The position numbers were made by a program, and so were the translations under genes. The notes below the pieces were generated by a model that made no database searches, was not told the origin of the DNA, and was given only the letters and a program-made list of their open reading frames with translations. A stretch of 64,000 bases of DNA from a bacterium (lineage in GTDB: Bacteria; Elusimicrobiota; Elusimicrobia; Elusimicrobiales; UBA9959), in contig JAJYJH010000002.1 in assembly GCA_021789695.1 (NCBI GenBank), forward strand, positions 62,001 to 126,000. Reading direction: 5' to 3'. Below are positions 4,702-62,198 of this stretch, piece by piece (position 1 is the first letter of the stretch; every line of letters starts with the position of its first letter).

Positions 4702-6033
4702 ATGTATATTCCCCACACTAAAAACGATAAGGAGGAGATGCTCAAGGCAATAGGGGCCTCCTCCCTGGGTGACCTCGTGAAGCAGGTCCCCTCGAAGTTC
4801 CTCCGGCCCAAGATAAGCCTCCCCGCGGAAAGCCTCGACGAGGCCCAAGCCGCCGCGAAGCTCTCCGAGCTCTCAAAGAAGAACCGCCGACCGCTGAGTT
4901 TCCTCGGAGCCGGCGCCTACGAGCGTTACACCCCGGCGGTGGTCAAGGCCGTAACCTCCCGCACCGAGTTCCTGACCGCCTACACTCCCTACCAGCCGGA
5001 GGCCAGCCAGGGCACGCTGCAGGCCATCTACGAGTTCCAGAGCACGGTCTGCTCGCTCTACGGCATGGACTACGCCAACGCGTCGATGTACGACGGCGCG
5101 AGCTCGTTCGCCGAGGCCGTGCGCGCGGCGGTGCGCGTGTCCGGCCGCAAAAAAATAGTCTACGCGGCCGGCATGAACCCGCAGTATATGGACACGCTGA
5201 AGACCTACTTCGCCCACTCTCCGGAATACTCCTACGTTAAGGTGCCACTTAAGGACGGCGCGCTGGATAAGGCGGCGCTGCCCGATCTGCTCGAGGGAGC
5301 GGCGTGCCTGGCGGTGCAGACCCCCAACTTCCTTGGCGTAATAGAGGATATGGACGGCGTTTCCGATATGGTCGGTAAGGCCGGCGCCCTGCTGGTGGCA
5401 GCGGCCGACCCGGTCAGCCTAGGCCTGCTGATACCCCCCGGCGAGTACGGTGCGGACTTCGCCGTCGGAGAGGGGCAGAGCCTGGGGCTGCCGCTCGCCT
5501 ACGGCGGCCCGTATCTGGGCCTGTTCTCCTGCAAAAAAGAGCACGTTCGCCAGATGCCTGGCCGCATCTGCGGCATGACCAAGGACCGCGACGGCAAGCG
5601 CGGCTTCGTGCTGACGCTGCAGGCGCGCGAACAGCACATCCGCCGCGACAAGGCCGCTTCCAACATCTGTTCCAACGAGGCGCTCTGCGCGCTCTCCGCG
5701 ACGATCTACTCGGCGCTGTACGGCCCCGAGGGGTTAAAGGAACTGGCCGAAGCCAACGCCGGCTCGGCCGCAGCCGCGGCCGAGCGGCTCTCGGCGATAA
5801 AGGGCTGCTCGCTCAAGTTCAAATCTCCGTTCTTCAACGAGTTCGTGCTCACGGTGCCGGGCAAGGCCGCGGCGCTACGCGAGAAGGTGCTCGCGATGAA
5901 GGGCATAGACCCGGGCCTGCCGCTGGCCCCGCTATACCCCGAGCTCGGCGAGACTCTGCTGGTCTGCGCCACCGAGACCAAAACCGCCGACGACATATTG
6001 AAGCTTGAAGCCGCCATCAAGGAGGCCATATGA
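4702..6033 (+). CDS. gcvPA: Glycine dehydrogenase (decarboxylating) subunit 1
   Basis: N-terminal half of the split P-protein, which decarboxylates glycine with PLP. I start it at the ATG giving MYIPHTKNDKEEML, which has CAGGAG eight bases upstream; the longer frame adds 16 non-conserved residues. 443 residues, normal for GcvPA. Landmarks are GAGAYERYTPAVV, AYTPYQPEASQGTLQAIYEF and the C-terminal REQHIRRDKAASNICSNEAL. The catalytic Lys sits on subunit 2. Its stop overlaps gcvPB by four bases (ATGA), consistent with stoichiometric expression. Confidence 0.95.
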   Translation: MYIPHTKNDKEEMLKAIGASSLGDLVKQVPSKFLRPKISLPAESLDEAQAAAKLSELSKKNRRPLSFLGAGAYERYTPAVVKAVTSRTEFLTAYTPYQPEASQGTLQAIYEFQSTVCSLYGMDYANASMYDGASSFAEAVRAAVRVSGRKKIVYAAGMNPQYMDTLKTYFAHSPEYSYVKVPLKDGALDKAALPDLLEGAACLAVQTPNFLGVIEDMDGVSDMVGKAGALLVAAADPVSLGLLIPPGEYGADFAVGEGQSLGLPLAYGGPYLGLFSCKKEHVRQMPGRICGMTKDRDGKRGFVLTLQAREQHIRRDKAASNICSNEALCALSATIYSALYGPEGLKELAEANAGSAAAAAERLSAIKGCSLKFKSPFFNEFVLTVPGKAAALREKVLAMKGIDPGLPLAPLYPELGETLLVCATETKTADDILKLEAAIKEAI

Positions 6034-7481
6034 CCCGCGCCGACAAACTGGACAACCGCCTGAGCATAGAGAAGTCAGACCCCGGCCGCCGCGGCCTGTT
6101 CTGCAAGAACCCGCTGCGGGTTAAAGCAAAGATCCCGGCGAACCTGCGCCGCAAGGCCGCCCCGCGGCTGCCCGAACTCGCCGAGTTCGACGTGGTGCGC
6201 CACTACACGCGCCTCTCCCGCCTGAACTTCTCGGTGGACACACACTTCTACCCGCTCGGTTCCTGCACAATGAAATACAACCCGCGCTTCAACGAGGAGG
6301 CCGCCGCGCTGGAGGGCTTCGCCGCGCTGCACCCGCTCGCGCACGACACCTGCTCACAGGGCACGCTGGAACTGCTGCACGACCTGGGCTCGCGCCTTAC
6401 GGAACTGCTCGGCATGGACGCGATCACGCTGCAGCCCGCCGCCGGCGCGCACAGCGAGTTCACCGGCCTGCTGCTCGCCAAGGCCTACTTTGAGGACAAA
6501 GGGGTTGGCGAGCGCAGCGAGATTATAGTCCCCGACTCTGCGCACGGCACCAACCCGGCCACCGCGTCGATGATGGGTTTCACCACGGTCAACATTGCCT
6601 CCAAGCCCGACGGCCGCCTGGACGTAGAAGAGCTAAAGAAGCACCTGGGCCCGAAGACCGCCGTGCTGATGCTGACCGTCCCCAACACCGTCGGCATCTT
6701 TGAAAGCAACATAGAGGCCATAGCCAAGGCCGTGCACGACGCCGGCGCGCTGCTCTATATGGACGGCGCCAACCTGAACGCGCTGATAGGTCTGGTCAAG
6801 CCCGGCGACATGGGAGTGGACATGATGCACCTCAACTTCCACAAGACCTTCTCCACCCCGCACGGCGGCGGAGGCCCCGGCGCGGGCGCGATAGCCTGCA
6901 GGAAGCACCTGGCCCCGTTCCTGCCGGTCCCGACGGTGAAAAAAGACGCCGGCCGATACGTCTCCGACTTCGGCGACAAGCGCACGATAGGCAAGGTTAA
7001 GGCGTTCTTCGGCAACACCGGCGTGCTGGTGAAAGCCTACGCCTACATGCTGGCGCACTCCGCGAAGGAGTTCGGCGAGATAGCGGAATGCGCCATTCTG
7101 AACGCCAACTATGTGGCCGCGAGGCTCAAGGACCTCTACCCGTCTTACTCGAAGGAGTACTGTATGCACGAGTGCGTACTGACCCCGGGCGCGGACCTGG
7201 CCGCCAAGGGGATAAAAACGCTGGACGTGGCCAAGGGCCTGCTCGACCGCGGCTTCCACGCCCCGACAGTGTACTTCCCGCTGATCGTCCACGAGGCGAT
7301 CATGATAGAGCCGACGGAGACCGAGAGCAAGGAAACGCTGGACGAGTTCATCGCCGCGATGCGGGACGTCCACGCCCAGGGCGCGGCCGACCCGCAGGCG
7401 CTCAAGGACGCCCCGGTGACGCAGCCGGTGAAGCGCCTCGACGAGGTCCAGGCCGCCAGGCAGCCTAACCTGCGCTGGTGA
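6030..7481 (+). CDS. gcvPB: Glycine dehydrogenase (decarboxylating) subunit 2
   Basis: C-terminal half of the split P-protein, 483 residues. The PLP-binding Lys is in LNFHKTFSTPHGGGGPG at about residue 274; FYPLGSCTMKYNPR and AHGTNPATA are family hallmarks. It overlaps gcvPA by four bases. The end of the gene is followed by a long inverted-repeat element before the lipoate-transferase gene. The system is reversible, so it may degrade glycine or make it from CO2, ammonia and methylene-THF; the sequence does not decide. Confidence 0.95.
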   Translation: MTRADKLDNRLSIEKSDPGRRGLFCKNPLRVKAKIPANLRRKAAPRLPELAEFDVVRHYTRLSRLNFSVDTHFYPLGSCTMKYNPRFNEEAAALEGFAALHPLAHDTCSQGTLELLHDLGSRLTELLGMDAITLQPAAGAHSEFTGLLLAKAYFEDKGVGERSEIIVPDSAHGTNPATASMMGFTTVNIASKPDGRLDVEELKKHLGPKTAVLMLTVPNTVGIFESNIEAIAKAVHDAGALLYMDGANLNALIGLVKPGDMGVDMMHLNFHKTFSTPHGGGGPGAGAIACRKHLAPFLPVPTVKKDAGRYVSDFGDKRTIGKVKAFFGNTGVLVKAYAYMLAHSAKEFGEIAECAILNANYVAARLKDLYPSYSKEYCMHECVLTPGADLAAKGIKTLDVAKGLLDRGFHAPTVYFPLIVHEAIMIEPTETESKETLDEFIAAMRDVHAQGAADPQALKDAPVTQPVKRLDEVQAARQPNLRW

Positions 7482-7493
7482 GTTGAACCGCCT

Positions 7494-7627
7494 GCCGTCT
7501 GACGAGGGGGCAGGATAAGCAAAACCCTCGTGAGGCCCGAGCTTGCCTAAGCGCGAGGGCCGAATCGCGGGGCGAGCGCACGGTATGCGTAGGCACGTTT
7601 TGCGTTCCTGCCCCCTTGGCAGACGGC
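7494..7627. repeat. Long inverted-repeat element, copy 1
   Basis: Arms at 7494-7525 and 7597-7627 are complementary with three mismatches and one single-base gap. The interior has a second stem, TGCCTA (7544-7549) with TAGGCA (7590-7595). Bases 7551-7589 match 22514-22552 of a second element at 29 of 39 positions without gaps. It fills the space between gcvPB and the lipoate-transferase gene and holds no convincing ORF. It could be a dispersed palindromic repeat (REP or MITE type) or a structured RNA in the operon transcript. Confidence 0.65.
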
Positions 7628-7644
7628 ATCACGGGAATAAGCGT

Positions 7645-8346
7645 ATGGAAAAAGGGCTGATAGTCGAAACGCCGCCGCTTGATGTTTACGGGCAGATGGC
7701 GGCCGACGAGGCGCTGTGCGAGGCGCTGCCGGCGCGGTACGTGCTGCGCTTCTACAACTGGAAGTCGCCCGGCATCACGTTCGGCTACTCGCAGCGGCGC
7801 AAGGCCGTAGCCGAGGCGGTAGCCGCGGCCGGAAGCCGCATAACTAGCGTCGTGCGCCGGCCCACTGGGGGCGGCATAGTCTTCCATGAGAGCGACCTGA
7901 CGTTCTCCTTCGTCTTCCACCAGCCGGGGGTCTACTTCGAGCCCGGCAAGGTCTACGACCGGCTGCACAGCGCCATAAACGCGGAATACGCCCGGCTGGG
8001 CATCCCGTTCGATCTGCTGAGCGAAAAGACTAAGGATTACGCCGTCAACGACCCGGTCATGAACTGCTTCTCAAAACCGGTGGATAAGGATATATTGTAT
8101 AATGGGAAAAAAGTCCTGGGAGGAGCGCTCAGGAAGCTGGGCGATTATATGCTTTACCAAGCCTCCTTCCAGGCCCCGGACGCGCGCGGGAACGCGCCGT
8201 TGCACAGGAACGCGATAATAAAGGCTCTCGGCGGCGAGTTCGGGCTGCAATGGGAGACCGCGGCCATGCCGGGAAGGACGGCCGGCAGGACGGCGGAACT
8301 GGCCAAGGAAAAGTACAGCACCGCCGCCTGGAACGAGCGTATATAG
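7645..8346 (+). CDS. Lipoate-protein ligase or octanoyltransferase (LplA/LipM family)
   Basis: BPL/LplA-fold enzyme that attaches lipoate or octanoate to carrier lysines such as on GcvH. The start at MEKGLIVE follows the inverted-repeat element. 233 residues, without the C-terminal accessory domain of E. coli LplA. RRPTGGG (71-77) is the acyl-AMP/acyl-binding loop; K155/K156 lie in NGKKVLGGA. C141 in NCFSKP appears to align with the catalytic Cys of LipM octanoyltransferases, so LipM activity (octanoyl transfer from acyl carrier protein) is a serious alternative to ATP-dependent ligation. Its place behind gcvPB supports GcvH as substrate. Confidence 0.8.
   Translation: MEKGLIVETPPLDVYGQMAADEALCEALPARYVLRFYNWKSPGITFGYSQRRKAVAEAVAAAGSRITSVVRRPTGGGIVFHESDLTFSFVFHQPGVYFEPGKVYDRLHSAINAEYARLGIPFDLLSEKTKDYAVNDPVMNCFSKPVDKDILYNGKKVLGGALRKLGDYMLYQASFQAPDARGNAPLHRNAIIKALGGEFGLQWETAAMPGRTAGRTAELAKEKYSTAAWNERI
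8098..8103 (+). promoter_or_regulatory. Possible internal -10 box (TATAAT) inside the lipoate-transferase gene
   Basis: TATTG followed by a perfect TATAAT lies within the coding region, about 250 bases before the Lrp-type gene. It could give separate expression of the downstream genes. No clear -35 is seen, and coding constraint could explain it. Confidence 0.25.
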
Positions 8347-21455: not shown

Positions 21456-22424
21456 TCACTTCAGCAAAACCTCGTTCTTTCCCTTCACAACTTCGCCGAC
21501 TACGACCGCGCCTTTCATTGTTCTCAGGGCGGTCTTCACAGCGGCGGGGCGCATGACCGCTATCATGCCTATGCCCATGTTGAAAGAATTCCACATATCG
21601 CGCTCCGGGATATCGCCCAAACGCTGTATCTCGCGCATGATGGGCGGGACTTCCCAGGAATCCTTCAGGACGACCGCGCCCATGGTCTTTGGCAGCGCCC
21701 GCGGCAGGTTGCCGGGTATGCCGGAGCCCGTGATGTGCGCGAGGGCGAGCACGTCGTGGCCCTGCCTGCGCAGCGCGGCGCGCAGCCTGTTTAGGTCCTT
21801 CACATAGATCTTCGTCGGGGTCAGCAGGCGCGCGGCGTATTTTTCCAGCAGCCCTTTCCTGTCCAGCACCTTGCGGATGAGCGAGAAGCCGTTGGAGTGA
21901 AAACCCGTGGACGGCAGGCCGACGAGGACGTCGCCGGGACGCACCTTGCGGCCATCAAAAGCCTCGGAGTTCCTGACTATGCCCACCGAGAAGCCGGCGA
22001 GATCGTATTCCCCCGCCTTGTAGAAGCCGGGCATCTCTGCGGTCTCGCCGCCAAGCAGCACGGATTCCCCCTGCCGGCAGCCTTCGAGGATGCCCTCGAT
22101 GATCTTTTTCGAGCGGGCGAGGTCGAGCCGGCCAGTGGCGTAGTAGTCCAGAAACAGCATGGGCCTGGCGCCGCAGCAGACCAGGTCGTTGACGCACATG
22201 GCGACGAGGTCTATGCCGATCGTGTCGTGCCTGTCCAAGAGAAAGGCGATTTTAAGTTTGGTGCCCACTCCGTCGGTGGAGGCGACCATGCTGTATTCGC
22301 CGCGGGTCTCCGGAATGCTGAGCAGTCCGGCGAAGCCTCCTATGGCCTTGGATTTTTTCTCCAGGAACTCGGTGAACCTGTCGGCCAGTTTTATATCCAC
22401 GCCGCTCTTCTTGTAGGTGGTCAT
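21456..22424 (-). CDS. purM: Phosphoribosylformylglycinamidine cyclo-ligase (AIR synthetase)
   Basis: Closes FGAM to AIR with ATP. 322 residues from the second of two tandem ATGs (MTTYKKSGVDIKLAD); the first is only one base from GGAGG. STDGVGTKLKIA, GIDLVAMCVNDLVCCGA and LPSTGFHSNGFSLIRKVL are PurM hallmarks. Slightly shorter than the usual 340-350. It is separated from purD upstream by an inverted-repeat element and from purNH by 46 bases. Confidence 0.94.
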   Translation of the reverse strand: MTTYKKSGVDIKLADRFTEFLEKKSKAIGGFAGLLSIPETRGEYSMVASTDGVGTKLKIAFLLDRHDTIGIDLVAMCVNDLVCCGARPMLFLDYYATGRLDLARSKKIIEGILEGCRQGESVLLGGETAEMPGFYKAGEYDLAGFSVGIVRNSEAFDGRKVRPGDVLVGLPSTGFHSNGFSLIRKVLDRKGLLEKYAARLLTPTKIYVKDLNRLRAALRRQGHDVLALAHITGSGIPGNLPRALPKTMGAVVLKDSWEVPPIMREIQRLGDIPERDMWNSFNMGIGMIAVMRPAAVKTALRTMKGAVVVGEVVKGKNEVLLK

Positions 22425-22459
22425 CATTCCTCCATTGATCCTGGTGCAAGATCCCGCGC

Positions 22460-22590
22460 GGGCTCGCAAGGACGCGCGTTATAAAGGCCGTCACAGAAAT
22501 CCGGGTTTGCGCAGCGCGAAAACCGAGTGACGAGGGGCGCGCGCGGTATGCGCGGCCCCGTGCCTGAAGAATGCGCGCCCTTGCGGGCCC
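22460..22590. repeat. Long inverted-repeat element, copy 2
   Basis: Arms 22460-22478 and 22572-22590 pair at 16 of 19 positions. The core 22514-22552 matches 7551-7589 of copy 1 (29 of 39), while the arms differ in sequence but are again self-complementary. The gap of 181 bases between purD and purM contains nothing else recognisable. Confidence 0.6.
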
Positions 22591-22605
22591 CTGACGCTCT
22601 TCCCA

Positions 22606-23856
22606 TCAAAGTCCTATATCCTTGCGGTACTGCATGCCTTCAAATTTTATGCCGGAGAGGGCTGCGTAGGCCTTCTCCCTGGCGTCCGCGACGTCACCGC
22701 CGCGGGCAGTAACGGCGAACACGCGGCCGCCCGCTGTCTCGTAGGCGTTGTCTTTCTTGACGGTACCAGCGTGAAAAACGTGCACTCCTTCGGGCGGCGC
22801 GTAAAGGCCGGTGATCCTCCTGCCTTTCTCCGGAGCGTCCGGATAGCCGGCCGCGGCGGCCACCACCGAGACGCAGACCCCGTCCTCCAGTTCAAGTTCC
22901 CTGCCCTCCAGTCTCCCTCCGGCGCAAGCGGCCAGCAGCGGCAGCAGGTCGCTTTTGAGCGCTGGCATGATGGCCTGGGTCTCCGGGTCCCCGAAGCGCA
23001 CGTTGAACTCCAGGACTCTAGGGCCGCGCGGGGTGAACATAAGCCCGGCGTAGATGACGCCGCAGAAATGGATGCGTTCGCGCTTTATGCCGTCCAGAAA
23101 GCGCCGGACGACCCGCGTCCTGATTGTCTCCATGTCCTCTTCTGATATCTCCACCGGGCAGACGGCGCCCATACCGCCTGTGTTGGGCCCGGCGTCGCCG
23201 TCCAGCAGACGCTTGTGGTCGCGCGCGGCGGGCAGCAGCAGCGCGCTCTCTCCGTCGGTGAGCGCCATCACCGAGGCCTCGCGGCCGGTCAGGAATTCCT
23301 CCATGACGACCTTGGAGCCGGAAGCGCCGAAAATGCGCCGCTCCATAAAGTCCTCCACGGAAGCCAGCGCCTCTTTCTCGTTCCGGCAGATGCGCACGCC
23401 CTTTCCGGCTGCCAGGCCGTCCGCCTTGATGACCACCGGATATTCGTTCACCGACCTTATCTTCTCCCTGGCGAACACCGGGGAGTAGAGTACGGTGAAA
23501 CCGGCGGTAGGGATGTCGTTTCGGTCCATGAACTCCTTGGCGAACTGCTTGGAGGCCTCCAGCATAGCCCCTTTCCGCGACGGGCCGAAGACCTTTACAC
23601 CCCTGGCCGAGAGAAAATCGGAGAGACCTTTGGCCAGCGGGGCCTCGGGGCCCACTACTACGAGGTCTATCTTTTCGGCCAGGCAGTAGGCGTAGATGCC
23701 GTCGTGGTCCTCCTGCTTCACCGGCGCGCAGGCCGCGAGCTCGGCTATGGCCGCGGACCCAGGTATGCAGTGCAGCCTGCCCAGTATCGGGCTCTGCTTT
23801 ATCTTCCAGGCCAGCGCGTGCTCGCGGCCCCCGGAACCTATGAGCAGTACGTTCAC
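22606..23856 (-). CDS. purD: Phosphoribosylamine-glycine ligase (GAR synthetase)
   Basis: ATP-grasp enzyme joining phosphoribosylamine and glycine, step 2 of purine synthesis. 416 residues. NVLLIGSGGREHALAWKI opens the N domain; YPVVIKADGLAAGKGV is the ATP-grasp nucleotide site; LLDGDAGPNTGGMGA and EFNVRFGDPETQAIMP are conserved. It overlaps purF by four bases. Glycine demand ties it to the gcv system nearby. Confidence 0.95.
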   Translation of the reverse strand: MNVLLIGSGGREHALAWKIKQSPILGRLHCIPGSAAIAELAACAPVKQEDHDGIYAYCLAEKIDLVVVGPEAPLAKGLSDFLSARGVKVFGPSRKGAMLEASKQFAKEFMDRNDIPTAGFTVLYSPVFAREKIRSVNEYPVVIKADGLAAGKGVRICRNEKEALASVEDFMERRIFGASGSKVVMEEFLTGREASVMALTDGESALLLPAARDHKRLLDGDAGPNTGGMGAVCPVEISEEDMETIRTRVVRRFLDGIKRERIHFCGVIYAGLMFTPRGPRVLEFNVRFGDPETQAIMPALKSDLLPLLAACAGGRLEGRELELEDGVCVSVVAAAAGYPDAPEKGRRITGLYAPPEGVHVFHAGTVKKDNAYETAGGRVFAVTARGGDVADAREKAYAALSGIKFEGMQYRKDIGL

Positions 23857-60860: not shown

Positions 60861-62198
60861 ATGAAGAAGAACAACCCCAAGACCATCCTGATCAAGAACG
60901 GCACCATCGCCACCCTCGGCGAGAAGAACAAGGTTCTCTACAATCACGCGCTGCTGATAGAGGGCGGACTGATAAAGAGGATAGCCCCGCAGAAGACGTT
61001 CAGGGGCAAGTACGCCAAAGTAATCGACGCCTCCGGCAAGCTGGTGTTGCCTGGTTTCATCAACGCGCACATGCACTTCTACAGCACCTTCGCGCGCGGG
61101 CTTGGCAAGGCCGCCCCGTCGAAGAACTTCGTAGAGATACTCAATAACCTCTGGTGGCGGCTGGACAAGCAGCTCACGAACGAGGACTCCTACTACAGCG
61201 CGCTCGGCCCGCTGATCGACGCGGTGCGCAAGGGCACGACCACGATAATAGACCACCACGCCAGCCCGTTCTCCATAGCCGGCTCCCTCTCGGCCGTAGA
61301 AAGGGCCGTGCGCGGGACCGGCTTGCGCGCGAATCTCTGCTACGAGGTCTCCGACCGCGACGGCAAGGAGAAGGCGAAGGAGGGCCTCGAAGAGAACTCC
61401 TCGTTCATCGCAGCCTGCAGTGCCCGCGGAGACAACATGGTCAAGGCGCTGTTCGGCCTGCACGCCTCCTTCACGCTAGGCGACGAAACGCTGGAGGAGG
61501 CCGCCTACCGCGGACACAAGACGGGGACCGGCTTCCATATCCACCTCGCAGAGTCAACGTCCGACCAGCTGCAGTGCGAGTCGCATCACAAGATGCGCGT
61601 CGCCGAGCGGCTGCGCGACTTCGGCATACTGGGCCGCAAGTCCATAGCGGCCCACTGCGTGCACGTCAACGCGGCCGAGATCGAGATACTCCGGGAAACC
61701 GGCACCGCGGTGGTTCACAATCCACAATCCAACGCCAACAACGCCGTCGGCATCGCCGACATCACCGAGATGAGCGACAGCGGCGTTCTGGTCGGCCTCG
61801 GCACCGACGCGATGACAGTTAATATGCTAGAGGAGGTCCGTTGCGGCCTCTGGCTGCAGCACCTCAAGCGCGACCCGGCCTGCGGCTTCATGGAGACCGC
61901 CAACGCGCTGCTCGTGAACAACGCGAAGATCGCCGGCCGTTATTTCGGCAACTTGGGCGAACTGAAGCCCGGCTTTGCGGCGGACATAGCGATAATGGAT
62001 TACCTTCCCCCCACGCCGATGGACGCCTCCAACTTCGCCGGCCACGTCATTTTCGGCGTCAGCCAGAGCGCGGTGGACACCACCATCTGCGCCGGAAAAG
62101 TGCTGATGGAGAACAAGGTGCTCAAGCTGGACCTCGACGAGGAAGAGGTCGCCCGCAAGTCAACGGAGCTCGCCAAGAAGCTCTGGGCCAGGTTTTAG
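60861..62198 (+). CDS. ssnA: SsnA-like amidohydrolase
   Basis: 445 residues. Metal ligands in NAHMHFYS, FHIHLAES, AAHCVHVN and GLGTDAMTVNM. The segments AVRKGTTTIIDHHASP and ARGLGKAAPSKNFVEILNNLWWRLD match the SsnA group, genetically tied to selenium-dependent molybdenum hydroxylases and purine catabolism in Enterobacteria and Clostridia. It starts six bases after the PreT-PreA fusion and must be cotranslated with it. Ring-opening hydrolysis or deamination of a purine product is likely. Confidence 0.9.
   Translation: MKKNNPKTILIKNGTIATLGEKNKVLYNHALLIEGGLIKRIAPQKTFRGKYAKVIDASGKLVLPGFINAHMHFYSTFARGLGKAAPSKNFVEILNNLWWRLDKQLTNEDSYYSALGPLIDAVRKGTTTIIDHHASPFSIAGSLSAVERAVRGTGLRANLCYEVSDRDGKEKAKEGLEENSSFIAACSARGDNMVKALFGLHASFTLGDETLEEAAYRGHKTGTGFHIHLAESTSDQLQCESHHKMRVAERLRDFGILGRKSIAAHCVHVNAAEIEILRETGTAVVHNPQSNANNAVGIADITEMSDSGVLVGLGTDAMTVNMLEEVRCGLWLQHLKRDPACGFMETANALLVNNAKIAGRYFGNLGELKPGFAADIAIMDYLPPTPMDASNFAGHVIFGVSQSAVDTTICAGKVLMENKVLKLDLDEEEVARKSTELAKKLWARF

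Follow-up and report, generated by a model that had tools for sequence, protein, structure and literature searches.

A dispersed, apparently mobile family of structured hairpin elements in Elusimicrobiota

Introduction

Among the small repeat families of bacteria, MITEs have constant ends, usually with a target duplication, and bcr1 is a chromosomal intergenic repeat family with a conserved secondary structure and features of mobility. The bcr1 repeats belong to the Bacillus cereus group (PMC3446304, PMC2267715). The ERIC, YPAL, Correia/NEMIS and RUP MITEs are small, non-coding, long-hairpin repeats that are held to be non-autonomous mobile elements, and effects on mRNA have been proposed for them (reviewed in PMC2229807). 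REP/BIME/REPIN sequences are dispersed palindromes behind 3' ends, in convergent and co-directional gaps and frequently in inverted pairs, and REP dimers are in some cases enclosed by larger palindromes (PMC3733652, PMC3116915). A REP is a palindrome of 20-40 bp with a GTAG or CGTC tag at its foot; a conserved stem mismatch is found in E. coli REP, one folded strand of which is recognised by RAYT enzymes (PMC8266576), and CGTC REPs occur without a linked transposase (PMC3733652).

Here, we describe a previously unlisted dispersed family of non-coding hairpin elements of uncultured Elusimicrobia, apparently mobile, to which an element behind the glycine dehydrogenase gene gcvPB of an Elusimicrobiota bacterium belongs. 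The family shares with REP/BIME/REPIN the dispersal behind 3' ends, the inverted pairs and, as a further likeness, the enclosure of a repeat within a larger palindrome; it also has a conserved stem mismatch and no linked transposase, like E. coli REP and CGTC REPs, respectively. In contrast to REP, the element has four to five times the length and carries two hairpins in a core that is enclosed by variable arms. It has neither the tag at its foot nor a RAYT nearby, and no described member from Elusimicrobia was found. With ERIC and the related repeats it shares the small, non-coding, long-hairpin form; unlike in MITEs, its arms are not constant between copies and a target duplication was not observed. 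The likeness to bcr1 is that of a chromosomal intergenic family with conserved structure and features of mobility; the host is unrelated and the fold different.

A structured element and its family

The window analysed is the whole stretch of 64,000 nt at positions 62,001 to 126,000 of contig JAJYJH010000002.1 (GCA_021789695.1), and the coordinates below refer to it. The complete copy 1 (7494-7627, plus strand) occupies the 163-nt gap between gcvPB, encoding glycine dehydrogenase subunit 2 (6030-7481, plus strand; NF003346, 697.7 bits), the stop codon of which lies 12 nt upstream, and a downstream lipoate-protein ligase A-like gene (lplA; 7645-8346, plus strand; PF21948, 59.3 bits, above the cut-off). 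Folded as RNA, copy 1 reaches -90.8 kcal/mol against -61.7 +/- 4.0 for shuffled sequences (z = -7.2; none of 200 shuffles was as stable), and a covariance model of the family matches it at 7487-7634 with 145.3 bits. A preliminary description had proposed a structured inverted-repeat element here, shared with a second intergenic site, and both proposals hold: copy 2 is degenerate but real and lies on the same strand at 22451-22599 (47.6 bits, E = 7.6e-10 in the window), antisense to an operon in which purD (22606-23856, minus strand; TIGR00877, 483 bits) is the upstream and purM (21456-22427, minus strand; TIGR00878, 360 bits) the downstream gene.

A BLAST search of the same genome located another good copy, immediately downstream of the RNase P RNA gene (rnpB). 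Of the 31 other genomes of the genus, 30 gave matches, and 29 genomes outside the genus gave none. With the covariance model, all 32 members of the genus proved to carry the element. Copy numbers per genome range from 9 to at least 97, the highest counts being lower bounds; the genome containing the window has approximately 10, decayed copy 2 included. The model search proposed in the preliminary description, for which an absence of further copies would have been telling, thus yielded hundreds. In a 295-genome sample of the phylum, the element was confined, but for two weak cases, to one family of Elusimicrobiota, where it occurs in several genera and others (g5, g6, g11 and g14) are free of it, and the contigs returned by a pattern scan of public genomes were titled Elusimicrobia, Elusimicrobiota, Elusimicrobiales or 'bacterium' metagenome assemblies. 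The genomes compared are metagenome assemblies of varying completeness, and site orthology rests on the flanking genes only.

Rfam gave no match to copy 1, either at the gathering score or at any E-value up to 10, and the best hit for a strong relative of the element had an E-value of 0.17, far below the cut-off. An origin as a phage or plasmid element was rejected, as no match was found, and a literature search for Elusimicrobia repeats returned no description. In one subfamily (L059, L085, L162, L247, L298 and L299), the arms are constant (GGCAAGGGTATGGG/CCCATACCCTTGCC) and the P2 stem is altered; its copies often stand second in an inverted pair, and it has possibly been active recently.

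Fold and covariation

The covariance model was built from an alignment of 29 copies and has 149 positions and several helices. The consensus fold of these copies contains 41 pairs, 29 of them with double-sided changes, and its four helices are kept via compensatory change. In copy 1 (coordinates on the plus strand), the copy-variable P1 arms (7496-7515 and 7606-7625) form 6 bp outside and 13 bp inside an A opposite a G. An asymmetric internal loop, nearly invariant among the 29 copies (GGRTTAGC / GCGTTCC in the family), separates P1 from P2, with its 5' side at 7516-7518 and its 3' side at 7604-7605, and P2 is an A/T stem of the invariant blocks GCAAAA (7519-7524) and TTTTGC (7598-7603). The conserved inner helices, both with covarying pairs, are the hairpins P3 (7534-7561; GGCCC..GGGCC with a conserved TT bulge and, in many copies, GA opposite GA) and P4 (7572-7594; GC..CGCAC GGT ATGCG..GC, with the loop GGT). 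P4 has the family form CAC GGT GTG within a conserved CACGGTGTG, for which copy 1 has CACGGTATG, with one pair broken.

As paralogous copies could mislead, pairs were also counted at a single orthologous site, behind rnpB, where 96.1% of the cells were paired in 13 genomes and 19 of the 41 pairs changed on both sides. The covariation score at this site was 0.371, compared with 0.133 for shuffled alignments (0 of 500 shuffles reached the score) and at most 0.069 for slid versions. With hundreds of further copies and very strong covariation, in relatives and even at single orthologous sites, the earlier proposal that pairing is retained while the sequence changes proved correct. The inner stem TGCCTA/TAGGCA that had been proposed for copy 1 is, however, not part of the family structure: TGCCTA belongs to the tip of P3 and TAGGCA to the 3' side of P4, and other copies carry TTGCRTAAGC and GCGCGAGC at these positions, so that the pairing is accidental.

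Position relative to genes and terminators

None of 147 copies (in 120 named contig pieces) lies inside a gene predicted with our own simple gene finder. Among 136 classified copies, 94 stand in co-directional gaps (45 sense and 49 antisense), 36 in convergent and 6 in divergent gaps, a distribution in agreement with the placement of REP at the 3' ends of co-directional and convergent genes (PMC3733652). Whichever their orientation, copies closely follow stop codons; for solitary copies, those in divergent gaps excepted, the median distance to the neighbouring genes is 5-42 nt. Close pairs account for 30 of the 136, and inverted pairs with short spacers are common.

With a simple terminator finder, canonical intrinsic terminators were found at 38% of convergent gene ends with the element versus 74% of those without it (Fisher p = 9e-5 by gene end), and in 16 of 29 convergent gaps with the element versus 27 of 31 without it (p = 0.009). 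At ends where no terminator was found, the element begins a median of 24-29 nt behind the stop codon. This suggests, by association only, that the element can take the place of a terminator; insertion near terminators followed by terminator decay would give the same convergent pattern, and at co-directional gene ends terminator frequency did not differ with the presence of the element. The element is not itself a canonical intrinsic terminator: no T tract directly follows P1 in the copies inspected, and the empty rnpB and purD sites described below have no terminator. That these sites never had one counts against a role at 3' ends.

Strand asymmetry and the selected molecule

In P1, G.U exceeds A.C on the element strand by 117:48 in an ungapped count, which is free of the bias towards the model structure that alignments made with the covariance model have. 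After removal of three positions with conserved non-Watson-Crick pairs, the ratio is 60:40 and not significant. By context it is 30:10 for antisense, 30:9 for convergent and, more weakly, 22:15 for sense copies. The existing asymmetry follows the element strand and not the transcript, and read-through mRNA was rejected as the selected molecule, as the G.U excess does not flip with the direction of transcription. An asymmetry of this kind fits either the recognition of one folded strand, as by RAYT enzymes on REP, or an RNA of the element's own, and proves neither.

The second option leads to a structured RNA family, in which the element strand would be transcribed and act as a 3' UTR element or a trans small RNA, rather than as a mobile repeat. 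Covariation on orthologous copies, the G.U excess in the full count and the conserved unpaired or asymmetric features (the TT bulge, GA/GA in both P3 and P4, and the GGT loop) would all be accounted for in this way. We nevertheless consider it unlikely, since the orientation of copies is neutral to flanking transcription, the G.U excess is independent of transcription and shrinks without the three special positions, copy numbers spread 10-fold between species with sites gained or lost, and no Rfam relative was found.

Filled and empty sites

In 16 genomes, among them G007, the PurD of which is 92% identical, the purD stop and the purM start lie 8-21 nt apart, counting the stop codon; in G000 (copy 2 of the window), G001 and G017, which have an element here, the distance is 178-197 nt. 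On the 3' side of rnpB, the element is present in 19 of 29 genomes (18 copies antisense to rnpB and one sense), and the distance to the next gene at empty sites is approximately 21-31 nt (G022, G009, G029, G002, G010 and G005). The junction is AGTTT^TAACAAGGAG at empty sites and AGTTT[CGGGGCC...]TATAAAATAAGGAG at filled ones. Filled and empty orthologous sites thus differ by approximately 160-180 nt and the empty gaps are only about 10-30 nt long, which indicates that copies insert, into short gaps behind stop codons or rnpB, in both orientations and often as inverted pairs. Insertion into pre-existing palindromes or terminators was ruled out at purD-purM and rnpB, where the empty sites are 8-31 nt long and without a palindrome. 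The flanking target duplications suggested as a check in the preliminary description were not seen at these best filled/empty pairs; at four sites in G018, the flanks were too diverged for the exact element ends to be read.

Depending on the species, the gcvPB-lplA slot is taken by a copy in plus or in minus orientation, by an inverted pair, by an ordinary terminator, by the remnant of an arm or by another repeat with a long hairpin; it is a slot of fast turnover of 3' hairpins. Such sites bear on the possibility that the elements are ancestral 3' end hairpins, inherited vertically and homogenised in their cores by gene conversion, so that absence would mean loss. Same-site presence in most species (24 of 30 loci at gcvPB-lplA, and the 19 of 29 at rnpB), identical cores with unrelated arms, and the second G026 element at gcvPB, which is closest to other G026 copies, are what this history would leave behind. 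It is quite improbable, however, in view of purD-purM, where the short form prevails and the filled form occurs only in three genomes of one close group, with different arms. In addition, three copies behind rnpB (L327, L328 and L342, in G011, G018 and G021) are each nested within an older copy, an arrangement shared by the three genomes, and congeners differ from 9 to at least 97 in copy number.

Other long-hairpin repeats were noted at these and similar slots. At the position of copy 1 behind gcvPB, L203 (G001) and L219 (G028) carry an unrelated repeat (..CTCGCTCCTGG..AAAGTCGCGA..), the copies of which have their core in common but differ in their complementary arms. A third family (..GGAAGGGGGGCCCCGC..GGGGGGAAACC..GGTTTCC..) occurs behind purD in L302 (G021) and L303 (G011) and behind gcvPB in L213 (G006), and L279 (G027:C38) has an AT-richer palindrome (..GGCACAAAGACACAAAG..CTTCGTGTCTTTGTGTG..) in a slot filled by the element in G018.

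Separate evolution of arms and core

The cores, approximately 90 nt long, can be identical while the arms differ almost as in random pairs. In 46 pairs of copies from different sites with cores at least 98% identical, the arms were 58% identical, versus 50% in random pairs, and core and arm identity were not correlated in a first set of copies. The arms are therefore not inherited with the core as the ends of a transposon are. Long inverted repeats are corrected by template switching during replication, and such quasi-palindrome correction, instead of selection, could keep the arms complementary and render covariation uninformative on function; although the long, near-perfect P1 stem is indeed the fastest changing part, this is very unlikely, as features that correction would erase are conserved (the P1/P2 loop, the TT bulge, and the P1 mismatch, which is A.G in 59 and G.A in 5 of 171) and covariation extends to P3 and P4.

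Gene conversion of cores is one explanation of the split between core and arms. Another, which we regard as doubtful but worth stating, is that only the core is copied, with complementary arms generated or rewritten locally each time, the stem being written anew. It is suggested by the identical cores with unrelated complementary arms in the genus, together with an element of distant similarity that occurs twice in G291, a genome from a different family of the class (L313, 840-984, and L316, 1501-1643): its two copies have cores that are 93% identical and completely different arms, which form perfect stems of 25-30 bp. No further full copies of this type were found in nine genomes of that family.

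Search for a mobiliser

Y1_Tnp genes are present in 27 of the 32 genomes, and the five genomes without them carry 25-62 copies of the element. None of 30 Y1_Tnp loci had an element match within approximately 1.5 kb (best E = 0.14), and Y1_Tnp and element counts were not correlated; a RAYT acting in trans is supported neither by linkage nor by counts. No longer, autonomous, gene-bearing version was found among half-site pairs in the loci examined. Of 185 copies, 13 have GTAG and 5 have CGTC in the outer 5' arm on the element strand, against 15 and 10 on the other strand. Because these tags are not conserved and no Y1 gene lies near the element at the 30 loci, we do not file it as REP: it works like a REP but is not one by definition. 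Nor is it a REPtron, which requires a Y1/RAYT gene flanked by the element (0 of the 30 loci). As in MITEs, the element is non-coding and polymorphic for insertion at orthologous sites (purD-purM and rnpB), but it has no constant terminal inverted repeats in common with an autonomous transposon, and no target duplication was apparent at rnpB.

Discussion

We favor, with a probability of roughly 0.6, the interpretation of the element as a mobile palindromic repeat, non-autonomous and approximately 130-180 nt long, that resembles REP/BIME and ERIC in the way it works and serves or is tolerated as a 3' end hairpin. We propose that an enzyme acting in trans copies the element and reads its folded strand, probably as single-stranded DNA, via the conserved core. 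Once inserted, the long stem would form a barrier at the 3' ends of transcripts from both strands, protecting them from 3' exonucleases and helping termination, so that copies would survive where transcription ends and be lost elsewhere. The arms would then change fast with their pairing retained, and repeated insertion or gene conversion would keep the cores of different copies alike.

The family adds a large, clearly structured set of repeats to a phylum with almost no genetics. Its covariance model would aid annotation, and some metagenome contig ends fall within copies. The separate evolution of core and arms is unusual, and core-only copying with renewal of the arms, if true, would be a mode of propagation undescribed for REP or MITE elements. 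With its hundreds of natural replicates, the family bears on why palindromic repeats gather at 3' ends and on how they spread without a linked transposase, a question already stated as open for the CGTC REPs (PMC3733652).
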